A stretch of DNA of 64,000 bases from assembly GCF_001417775.1 (NCBI RefSeq), contig NZ_BBZJ01000029.1, positions 62,001 through 126,000 on the forward strand. Direction: 5' to 3'. The stretch's first letter is position 1. The number at the start of each line of letters is the position of its first letter. This stretch comes from Streptomyces sp. TP-A0356 (GTDB taxonomy: Bacteria; Actinomycetota; Actinomycetes; Streptomycetales; Streptomycetaceae). Positions 49,017 to 53,112 of this stretch are shown piece after piece. The notes beneath the pieces were generated by a model. The model was not told the DNA's origin. It did no database searches and was given only the letters and a program-made list of their open reading frames with translations. Position numbers and translations under genes: made by a program.

Positions 49017-50441
49017 TCAGGTGCGCTCGCCCAGGTGGTGGACGCGGACCATGTTCGTGGTGCCCGGGACGCCGGGCGGGGAGCCGGCGGTGATGACCAC
49101 GATGTCGCCGTCGTTGAACCGCTTCAGCTTCACCAGCTCCTGGTCGACCAGGTCGACCATCTCGTCGGTGCTGTTCACGAACGGAACGACGTGCGACTCC
49201 ACGCCCCAGCTCAGCGTCAGCTGGTTGCGGGTGGACTCGTCCGTGGTGAACGCCAGGATCGGCTGGGCCGCGCGGTAGCGGGACAGCCGGCGGGCGGTGT
49301 CACCGGACTTGGTGAAGGCCACCAGGCCCTTGCCGCCGAGGAAGTCCGCGATCTCGGCCGCCGCGCGCGCCACCGAACCGCCCTGCGTCCGCGGCTTCTT
49401 GCCCGGGACCAGCGGCTGCAGGCCCTTGGAGAGCAGCTCCTCCTCGGCCGCGATGACGATCTTCGACATCGTCTTGACCGTCTCGATCGGGTACGCGCCC
49501 ACGCTGGACTCGGCCGACAGCATGACCGCGTCGGTGCCGTCCAGGATGGCGTTGGCCACGTCGGAGGCCTCGGCGCGCGTGGGACGGGAGTTGGTGATCA
49601 TCGACTCCATCATCTGGGTCGCCACGATCACCGGCTTGGCGTTGCGGCGGCACAGTTCGATGAGCCGCTTCTGCACCATCGGGACCTTTTCGAGCGGGTA
49701 CTCGACGGCCAGGTCGCCGCGGGCGACCATCACCCCGTCGAACGCCATCACGACGTCCTGCATGTTCGCCACCGCCTGCGGCTTCTCCACCTTGGCGATG
49801 ACCGGGACCCGGCGGCCCTCCTCGTCCATGACGCGGTGGACGTCCTTGACGTCGTTGGCGTCCCGCACGAAGGACAGCGCGACCATGTCGCAGCCCATGC
49901 GCAGCGCGAACCGCAGGTCGTCGATGTCCTTCTCGGACAGTGCCGGGACGTTCACCGCCGCGCCGGGCAGGTTGATGCCCTTGTGGTCGGAGATGACACC
50001 GCCCTCGATGACGATCGTCCTGACCCGGGGGCCCTCGACGTCCAGGACCTTCAGCTCGACGTTGCCGTCGTTGATGAGGATCTGGTCGCCGCGCTGCACG
50101 TCTGCCGGCAGGCCCTTGTAGGTCGTGCCGCAGATGTGCTTGTCGCCCAGCACGTCCTCGGTGGTGATGATGAACTCGTCACCGCGCACCAGCTCGACCG
50201 GGCCCTCCGCGAAGGTCCCCAGGCGGATCTTCGGGCCCTGCAGGTCGGCGAGGACACCGATGGCCTTGCCGGTCTCGGCGGACGCGGACCGGACGCGGTC
50301 GTACCGCCCCTGGTGCTCCTCGTGGGATCCGTGGCTGAAGTTGAAGCGGGCCACGTTCATGCCGGCTTCGATCAGCGTGACGAGCATTTCGTGGGAGTCG
50401 ACCGCGGGGCCGAGAGTACAGACGATCTTCGAACGGCGCAT
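49017..50441 (-). CDS. pyk: Pyruvate kinase
   Basis: A 474-residue glycolytic enzyme that converts phosphoenolpyruvate and ADP to pyruvate and ATP. MRRSKIVCTLGPAVDSHEML, NVARFNFSHGSHEEH, VMVARGDLAVEYP and the signature KPVIVATQMMESMI (catalytic Lys in VIAKVEKPQAV) are all present, with the C-terminal regulatory domain intact. Length is normal. It lies downstream of the pta-ackA relic and convergent with the secreted-protein gene. A TAGGAT -10 lies just before the ATG. Confidence 0.97.
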   Translation of the reverse strand: MRRSKIVCTLGPAVDSHEMLVTLIEAGMNVARFNFSHGSHEEHQGRYDRVRSASAETGKAIGVLADLQGPKIRLGTFAEGPVELVRGDEFIITTEDVLGDKHICGTTYKGLPADVQRGDQILINDGNVELKVLDVEGPRVRTIVIEGGVISDHKGINLPGAAVNVPALSEKDIDDLRFALRMGCDMVALSFVRDANDVKDVHRVMDEEGRRVPVIAKVEKPQAVANMQDVVMAFDGVMVARGDLAVEYPLEKVPMVQKRLIELCRRNAKPVIVATQMMESMITNSRPTRAEASDVANAILDGTDAVMLSAESSVGAYPIETVKTMSKIVIAAEEELLSKGLQPLVPGKKPRTQGGSVARAAAEIADFLGGKGLVAFTKSGDTARRLSRYRAAQPILAFTTDESTRNQLTLSWGVESHVVPFVNSTDEMVDLVDQELVKLKRFNDGDIVVITAGSPPGVPGTTNMVRVHHLGERT

Positions 50442-50447
50442 GGGGCG

Positions 50448-50491
50448 ATCCTATCGGTTTGTTTCGCTACGGAATATTCCGCCTGGCGGAA
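50448..50491 (-). promoter_or_regulatory. pyk promoter region with palindromes
   Basis: On the leftward strand TAGGAT (50453-50448) ends six bases before ATG 50441, a leaderless geometry. Upstream, GGAATATTCC (50471-50480) and TTCCGCC-T-GGCGGAA (50477-50491) are two overlapping perfect palindromes. They could be operators, or the second could be a weak terminator for the gene upstream. Confidence 0.45.
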
Positions 50492-50540
50492 GATGCAAAT
50501 GGGCAGGTTCGCGCTCAGGCGAGAGCCGGTCGAATTCCTT

Positions 50541-51816
50541 TCAGTTGCTCTTTCCGACCAGTGCGTAGGTCTGCCTGGCGATCTCCAGTTCCTCGTCGGT
50601 GGGCACCACGGCGACCGCCACCCGCGCGTGCGCGGGCGAGATCAGCCGCGGCTCGTCGCCCCGTACGGCGTTCAGGGCGCCGTCGACCGCCAGGCCCGGC
50701 TCCTCCAGGCCCTCGACGGCCGCCGCCCGCACCTCGGCGGCGTTCTCGCCCACTCCGGCCGTGAAGGCGATCGCGTCCACCCGGGCCGAGTACCGCGTAA
50801 TAGGCGCCGATGTACTTCTTCAGTCGATGGATGTAGATGTCGAAGGCGAGCCGCGCCGCCCGGTCGCCCTCGTCGATCCGGCGGCGGATCTCCCGCATGT
50901 CGTTGTCTCCGCACAGACCGAACAGACCGCTCCTCTTGTTGAGGAGAGTGTCGATCTCATCCATGGACATTCCGCCAACACGCATCAAATGGAAGATGAC
51001 CGCGGGATCCACGTCACCGGAGCGCGTTCCCATCACGAGCCCCTCCAGCGGAGTGAGCCCCATGGAGGTGTCCACGCACCGGCCGCCCCTGACGGCCGAG
51101 GCGGATGCCCCGTTGCCCAGGTGCAGCACGATGACGTTGACCTCTTCCGGCGCCTTGCCCAGCAGCTTCGCGGTCGCCCGGGACACATAGGCGTGCGAGG
51201 TCCCGTGGAACCCGTACCGCCGCACCCGGTGCCGGTCCGCGATCTTCAGGTCGAGCGCGTGGCTCGCCGCGTACTCCGGCATGGTCGTGTGGAACGACGT
51301 GTCGAAGACGGCGACCTGCGGCAGGTCCGGGCGCAGTGCCCTGGCCGTGCGGATGCCGGTGAGGTTGGCCGGGTTGTGCAGCGGCGCCACGGGGTCGCGC
51401 CCGCCCACCACCGGAATCACGGACGCCCCGAACTCGTTGGCGAGCCGGGCGTTGAGGGAGAGCTCGTCCGGGAGCTGGGTGTCGGCGAAGTCGCAGCTGA
51501 CTACGAGGACGACCTCGCAGTCACGGGCCACGGCATGGAACCGGTCGACCAGGGTCGACACCAGCTCGTCCGTCCCGCGCTCGGCCTGGAGCGCGGACGC
51601 CTGGTGGTGGTCCATGCCGTAGACGGTCGCCGGGTCCTGGGAGAGCCGGTACCGGGCGCGCAGCAGCTCGAAGAGGCGGTCGGGGCCGTCATGGACGAGC
51701 GGGCGGAAGACGCCCACCCGGTCGACCTGCCGGGTCAGGAGCTCCATGACTCCCGGCTCGACGACCTGACGGCCGTCGCCGCGGTCGATCCCGGTCACGT
51801 ACACGCTGCGCGTCAC
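50541..51816 (-). pseudogene. pta-ackA: Pta-AckA deletion chimera with frameshift
   Basis: Residues 1 to about 140 ([20 protein letters not shown] through [16 protein letters not shown]) are the N-terminal P-loop-like domain of actinobacterial phosphate acetyltransferase. From about residue 143 (51390) the frame continues as acetate kinase from [16 protein letters not shown] through [20 protein letters not shown] and [11 protein letters not shown]. The Pta catalytic domain, the intergenic region and about 120 N-terminal AckA residues are gone. An extra base in the GGG run at 50783-50785 then shifts the frame. The true AckA end ([20 protein letters not shown] to LVGKSN) lies in the other frame, down to 50541. 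Neither enzyme can be functional. Confidence 0.85.
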
Positions 51817-51910
51817 GCATGCCTCCCGTTTCGTCTCTCGGGTGGGGTGGTGGCGGGCAGGGGCCCGGGTGTGACTCGCGACAACCGTCCGCGAGGGGGG
51901 CAGAACCCCC

Positions 51911-51939
51911 TTGACAATACCTCCGGGGCCGGATATGGC
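51911..51939 (+). promoter_or_regulatory. Candidate pfkA promoter
   Basis: A consensus TTGACA at 51911-51916 is followed after 17 bases by TATGGC. It points at pfkA, about 145 bases downstream. A GGGGG-CAGAA-CCCCC hairpin precedes the -35. Confidence 0.5.
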
Positions 51940-52086
51940 GCCCGTCAGCTCTTGGGGATCAAGGGGGCCGGCCGGAGGTGGGCCAGGGAGGCGGCCGGGG
52001 TGGGTGGGGAATCGGCACCCGCCTGTGCGCCGTGAAACAATCGGATTGGCTCACCGGTATCGACAGCGAGCAGGAGACACAGCACG

Positions 52087-53112
52087 ATGCGCATCGGAGT
52101 ACTCACCGCAGGCGGCGACTGCCCGGGCCTGAACGCAGTGATCCGGTCGGTCGTGCACCGGGCGGTGGCCCAGTACGGCGACGAGGTCATCGGTTTCGAG
52201 GACGGCTACCGGGGCCTGCTGGAAGGTCACTACCGCACCCTCGACCTCGACGCCGTCAGCGGCATCCTGGCCCGTGGCGGTACGATCCTCGGTTCCTCCC
52301 GGCTGGAGCGCGACCGGCTGCGCGAGGCCTGTGAGAACGCCTCGGACATGATCCGCGACTTCGGCATCGACGCACTGATCCCGATCGGCGGCGAGGGCAC
52401 GCTGACGGCCGCGCGGATGCTCTCGGACGCGGGTCTGCCGGTGGTCGGCGTCCCCAAGACGATCGACAACGACATCTCGTCCACGGACCGCACCTTCGGC
52501 TTCGACACCGCGGTCACCGTGGCGACCGAGGCCATGGACCGCCTGAAGACGACGGCCGAGTCCCACCAGCGGGTGATGGTCGTGGAGGTCATGGGCCGCC
52601 ACGCGGGCTGGATCGCGCTGGAGTCGGGCATGGCGGCCGGCGCCCACGGCATCTGCCTGCCCGAGCGTCCCTTCGACCCCGCCGACCTGGTCAAGATGGT
52701 CGAGGAGCGCTTCGCCCGCGGCAAGAAGTTCGCGGTGGTCTGCGTCGCCGAGGGCGCGCACCCCGCCGAGGGCACCATGGACTACGCCAAGGGCGAGATC
52801 GACCAGTACGGCCACGAGCGCTTCCTGGGCATCGGTACGGCGCTGGCGTACGAACTGGAGAGGCGGCTCGGCAAGGAGGCCAAGCCGGTCATCCTCGGCC
52901 ACGTCCAGCGTGGCGGCACGCCGACCGCGTACGACCGGGTGCTCGCGACCCGCTTCGGCTGGCACGCGATCGAGGCGGCGCACCGGGGGGAGTTCGGCAT
53001 GATGACGGCGCTGCGCGGCACCGAGGTGGTGATGGTGCCGCTCGCGGAGGCGGTGACCGAGCTGAAGACGGTGCCGAAGGACCGGATGGACGAGGCGGAG
53101 TCGGTCTTCTAG
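52087..53112 (+). CDS. pfkA: 6-phosphofructokinase
   Basis: A 341-residue glycolytic enzyme that phosphorylates fructose 6-phosphate. MRIGVLTAGGDCPGLNAVIR, the phosphate-donor loop IGGEGTLTAARML, the catalytic PKTIDNDI and GRHAGWIALESG are conserved. The Gly in GGEGT indicates ATP as donor, while the Lys in PKTIDND is the feature shared with PPi-type enzymes; this combination is typical of actinobacterial group III PFKs. AGGAG lies about ten bases before ATG 52087. It is divergent from the broken pta-ackA locus. Confidence 0.96.
   Translation: MRIGVLTAGGDCPGLNAVIRSVVHRAVAQYGDEVIGFEDGYRGLLEGHYRTLDLDAVSGILARGGTILGSSRLERDRLREACENASDMIRDFGIDALIPIGGEGTLTAARMLSDAGLPVVGVPKTIDNDISSTDRTFGFDTAVTVATEAMDRLKTTAESHQRVMVVEVMGRHAGWIALESGMAAGAHGICLPERPFDPADLVKMVEERFARGKKFAVVCVAEGAHPAEGTMDYAKGEIDQYGHERFLGIGTALAYELERRLGKEAKPVILGHVQRGGTPTAYDRVLATRFGWHAIEAAHRGEFGMMTALRGTEVVMVPLAEAVTELKTVPKDRMDEAESVF

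Follow-up and report, generated by a model that had tools for sequence, protein, structure and literature searches.

A probable natural pta-ackA pseudogene in Streptomyces sp. TP-A0356, with a deletion fusion and an ackA frameshift

Results

The fused reading frame and its neighbors

The DNA analyzed here, referred to as the window, is a 64,000-nt stretch of contig NZ_BBZJ01000029.1 of Streptomyces sp. TP-A0356 (assembly GCF_001417775.1), and it holds what is very probably a natural pta-ackA pseudogene, produced by a deletion of about 2.0 kb that fused the two genes and further damaged by a frameshift in ackA. The fusion is real in the assembly: an open frame of 433 aa on the minus strand (50515..51816 in the open-frame list, with a GTG start at 51816) passes from phosphate acetyltransferase (Pta) into acetate kinase (AckA) without a stop, as the first-pass annotation had proposed. 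Within this single frame, residues 2-140 match positions 2-142 of 708 in the phosphate acetyltransferase profile NF004167 (E 3.6e-25), followed by residues 142-344, which match positions 121-326 of 405 in the acetate kinase profile TIGR00016 (E 1.2e-86). The first match, at 88.6 bits, is below the whole-protein cut-off of 418, and the second, at 291 bits, is just below the cut-off of 293.4. The Pfam models AAA_26 (PF13500, fusion residues 3-140) and Acetate_kinase (PF00871, 141-344) were both above their cut-offs.

The Pta remnant (51397..51816, minus strand) consists of the GTG and codons 1-140. It therefore shares residues 1-140 with phosphate acetyltransferases that have an N-terminal AAA_26 region (NF004167), but it lacks the catalytic PTA_PTB domain, and even the AAA_26-type region is truncated (PF13500 1-138 of 198). 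The AckA remnant in the fused frame (50785..51390, minus strand) corresponds to the middle of the enzyme, approximately profile residues 121-326 of TIGR00016 and 115-320 of 392 of PF00871. Compared with AckA proteins described by these models, the N-terminal part is missing and the C-terminal part is out of frame. Against the acetate kinase structures 1tuu and 1g99, the match begins only at chain residue 118, so that everything before approximately residue 118 of the Methanosarcina structures is missing and the full-length fold is absent from the fusion. The missing part would include Asn7 and Arg91 of the Methanosarcina enzyme, which we take to be substrate residues. The loss of the Pta catalytic domain and of the AckA N-terminal part had both been anticipated in the first-pass annotation.

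Both neighboring genes are intact. Downstream lies a pyruvate kinase gene, pyk (49017..50441, minus strand; NF004886, 641.4 bits, above cut-off), and the divergent neighbor is the 6-phosphofructokinase gene pfkA (52087..53112, plus strand; TIGR02483, 472.6 bits, above cut-off). The order pta, ack, pyk is common to the window and to the pta-ack-pyk2 operon of S. albulus, as presented in the accessible part of that report (PMC8994273), with pfkA divergent upstream in the window. Relative to the operon in the same partial account, the window has lost about 2.0 kb, its genes are fused and its ackA is frameshifted (PMC8994273).

One deletion and a second lesion

For comparison we used the best 80 of 389 confirmed loci, a set from which records of the window's own genome or a very near one may have been left out. 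In 78 of these 80 relatives pta and ackA are full length and in tandem, 77 by script and one, L048, by eye (its ackA is intact and the script's motif missed it). In the other two, L038 and L090, the gene pair is cut short by a contig end. This agrees with the earlier expectation that pta lies directly upstream of ackA in other streptomycetes. Among the best 80 of 389, Streptomyces sp. Y2F8-2 (L056) is closest at the DNA level, with 92.5% identity over the aligned parts, followed by NRRL F-5122 (L040) with 90.9%.

Measurement against five relatives gave a single missing block each time, of 2,018-2,141 bp, with net lengths of 2,021 (L056), 2,018 (L040), 2,061 (L082), 2,044 (L060) and 2,141 bp (L050). 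The Pta remnant aligns without gaps to L056, L040 and L082 as far as 51397, where the break falls at residue 140 of the 696 in the L056 Pta. The AckA side aligns from 51394, and local alignments thus place the deletion junction at 51394..51397 on the minus strand, with two bases, 51395-51396, outside both alignments. A single deletion joining Pta near codon 140 to AckA near codon 123, with its junction close to 51390-51402, had been proposed from the sequence. Our alignments bear this out and move the AckA end slightly, to approximately codon 118-121. Within 30 bp on either side of the breaks, the two regions have as their longest common word an exact 12 bp in L056 and 7 bp in L040. This word, the IPV-coding repeat, lies near both break points, yet it is not at the joint.

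The second lesion is a +1 frameshift. Relative to all six relatives aligned, the window's ackA has one extra base at 50783..50785 (minus strand), which the aligner placed between 50783 and 50786. The Pfam acetate kinase model (PF00871) matches the locus as two pieces in different frames, and the C-terminal remnant (50541..50782, minus strand; translation matching PF00871 317-392), which comprises the last 80 or so AckA codons, is out of frame with the fusion. Because the extra base shifts the frame, the fused frame runs past the native ackA stop at 50541-50543 and ends at 50515. The first-pass annotation missed this base and had the frame end at 50541. Selection for an open shifted frame was considered and rejected. 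After the same shift, 27 of 68 relatives would likewise read through beyond the ackA stop (among the 80 loci, 12 had no usable ackA frame), so the openness of the shifted frame is no evidence of such selection.

Within ackA and beyond it, the remaining alignment gaps are in-frame 9-base gaps just 5′ of the ackA stop between the window and L082 and L060, two 4-base gaps in ackA that compensate each other and are seen only against L106, and small gaps between ackA and pyk, from 50542 down to 50446. The pta remnant and pfkA, each aligned over its whole length to three relatives, contained no further indel, and neither did pyk, which was aligned to six relatives as far as its last 6-12 bases. This makes a generally error-prone sequence or assembly unlikely.

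Other copies in the genome and rarity among relatives

The genome of this strain (8.41 Mb in 62 contigs; completeness 100, contamination 1.64) was searched for other copies of both genes, a check that had been recommended from the sequence. Across the whole assembly the catalytic PTA_PTB domain (PF01515) had no match, and no acetate kinase was found beyond the two pieces at the locus. Genomes drawn from the genus, 392 with the window's own included, matched the PTA_PTB family in 389 cases. In a sample where the Pta domain is so nearly universal, it is unusual for a node of central metabolism to suffer a natural double loss. The three genomes with no match are that of the window, G130 and G152. 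In G130 ackA ends 76 bases from a contig end, on the side expected for pta, and G152 has a partial ackA that starts 13 bases inside its contig; with ackA at a contig end, both look like assembly gaps.

Those two genomes bear on a different explanation of the locus, in which both genes are intact in the strain itself and about 2 kb was skipped, and one base inserted, during assembly. The assembly is a draft of 62 contigs, and in both other genomes lacking a Pta match ackA is at a contig end. However, the site in the window lies inside a 136-kb contig, and the missing Pta domain is found nowhere else in the assembly. The word shared by the two break regions (12 bp in L056, 7 bp in L040) is too short for an assembly collapse and is not at the joint, and outside ackA the pta remnant, pfkA and pyk are free of indels to the extent described above. 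We consider such an artefact improbable.

A 35-base joint pattern, searched with up to three mismatches, was found in one of 394 family genomes (a draw that partly overlaps the 392), which is the window's own. A DNA search of 61 genomes matched 60, and among the matches listed only the window's own was full length. The pta-ackA double loss is rare in the genus sample, but it is an ordinary kind of gene loss. A literature search, with most subscription papers outside its scope, found no paper on a Streptomyces pta-ackA pseudogene or fusion, and we make no claim that the event is unpublished.

Fourteen of the genus genomes have two Pta matches apiece, and nine of these were re-examined (G086, G102, G254, G258 and G262 being the five outside the re-examination). 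In eight of the nine, both Pta pieces report the same open-frame length and apparently belong to one frame split by a short insert, and recurrent loss of pta in the genus was rejected on this basis. In seven of them (G028, G125, G129, G149, G164, G198 and G353; loci L143-L156) a short insert splits the match at approximately profile 140-150. In G185 (L141, L158) the split is at profile 63-64, with an insert of about 30 residues and the same open-frame length for both pieces. The ninth, G374 (L142, L157; 55% complete), has its Pta pieces in open frames of different length, perhaps through a sequencing frameshift.

How the deletion may have formed

The first-pass annotation had suggested short-homology recombination between IPV-coding ends. 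The repeat exists, as an exact 12-bp word near each break point in L056 and as 7 bp at the same place in L040, but recombination there is unsupported by the joint. The product retains Pta's copy of the repeat and the bases that follow it, then the two filler bases, then PV from AckA's copy. A simple crossover cannot yield a complete copy and a partial one with intervening bases, and only a complex multi-step event could rescue this explanation, so we regard recombination between the two repeats as very improbable. The residue at the joint, Asp, was found in none of 71 motif matches after the Pta GGR among the best 80 of 389 loci. A few bases of microhomology are possible, as the ancestral joint is known only through relatives that are approximately 91-93% identical.

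The joint, with its two filler bases and at most a little shared sequence, is better explained by double-strand break repair through end joining than by repeat recombination, and we infer that the deletion was probably made in this way. NHEJ-like genes have reportedly been found in Streptomyces ambofaciens. In the assembly, a single deletion of about 2.0 kb has removed the 3′ four fifths of pta along with roughly the first 118-120 codons of ackA, and both stumps happen to be joined in frame. We propose that the break would have been repaired by end joining with the two filler bases. A one-base insertion, either earlier or later than the deletion, would then account for the AckA C-terminus being thrown out of frame.

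Sequence constraint on the remnant

Changes specific to the window were compared with those in L056, taken as sister, and L040, taken as outgroup, roles that were set by synonymous differences. In ackA the nonsynonymous/synonymous counts are 14/15 for the window, 5/16 on the L056 side and 2/29 on the L040 side, and the window differs from the two relatives pooled (7/45; Fisher p 0.0012). The same comparison for ackA and pta together gives p 0.0019, and a like comparison for pfkA and pyk gives p 0.21. Set against the window's own pfkA and pyk, the ackA excess is not significant (p 0.10; 0.075 with pta added).

We also counted window-only differences at columns invariant in 70 relatives, which are those longer than 11 kb among the best 80 of 389 (ten shorter ones were dropped). 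There are four in pta, three and zero in the two ackA pieces, one in pfkA and none in pyk. The highest relative of the 70 has private changes of 3 in pta, 2 and 1 in the ackA pieces, 2 in pfkA and 3 in pyk, and the window is barely above it (4 vs 3 in pta, 3 vs 2 in the first ackA piece). Pooled, pta and ackA have 7 differences at 262 invariant columns vs 1 at 539 for pfkA and pyk (p 0.0022), although three of the seven are adjacent. These three are at Pta codons 106-108 (window 51493-51501), where LGT, invariant in the 70 relatives, is VSC in the window, and they may be one clustered mutation event. The excess of amino-acid changes suggests relaxed constraint on the pta-ackA remnant, with not every comparison significant.

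That the chimera is instead a working protein under selection, for example a regulator or a partial kinase, is extremely unlikely: its junction is in frame and its frame is open beyond the native ackA stop to 50515, but in-frame joining has about a one-in-three chance and 27 of 68 relatives would share such openness, the chimera lacks both the catalytic domain of Pta and the N-terminal part of AckA, it shows excess amino-acid changes vs two relatives (L056 and L040), and its joint pattern was found in one of the 394 family genomes, its own.

Discussion

The reading we favor is a natural pseudogene, for which we found intact orthologues at the same place in relatives and a further inactivating lesion beside the deletion. 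Both Pta and AckA should be inactive, judging from the missing domains and the out-of-frame AckA C-terminus. As neither enzyme is expected to work, gene content implies that the strain should lack the AckA-Pta route. Acetate activation would still be open through AMP-forming acetyl-CoA synthetase, for which the genome has two genes above cut-off. The Succ_CoA_lig domain has five matching places in the genome, and some of these could be ADP-forming acetyl-CoA synthetases.

The constructed ackA-pta double mutant of E. coli K-12 likewise lacks the two enzymes of this route, according to the part of that study available to us (PMC7047895). In contrast with the mutants in that partial account, the event in the window is natural, occurred in an actinomycete, kept both end pieces and is known from sequence alone (PMC7047895). 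In E. coli, mutants of the ackA-pta pathway showed only small changes in aerobic growth, as far as the same excerpt goes, which makes natural loss in an aerobe plausible (PMC7047895).

Since pyk and the sequence upstream of pta are both still present, the remnant may survive as a transcribed leader for pyk. In S. albulus, pta, ack and pyk2 share one promoter and are co-transcribed, as stated in the accessible text (PMC8994273), and from this the remnant may still lead into pyk in the window. A promoter and terminator scan of 50400-52100 found nothing, including upstream of pta, and the leader idea therefore draws on S. albulus alone.

Neither Pta, nor an intact AckA, nor a phosphoketolase (PF03894) was matched in the genome. 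We put at about even chances the broader reading that the strain lacks any enzyme for making acetyl phosphate, that it offers a natural test case, and that the remnant is kept only as a transcribed pyk leader. The locus adds no new kind of system. If the loss is real, at least one lineage can dispense with the AckA-Pta route, and the strain would be a natural null for acetyl phosphate effects. If the broader reading is also true, it would provide a natural Streptomyces test of the part played by acetyl phosphate in protein acetylation, response-regulator control and carbon overflow.
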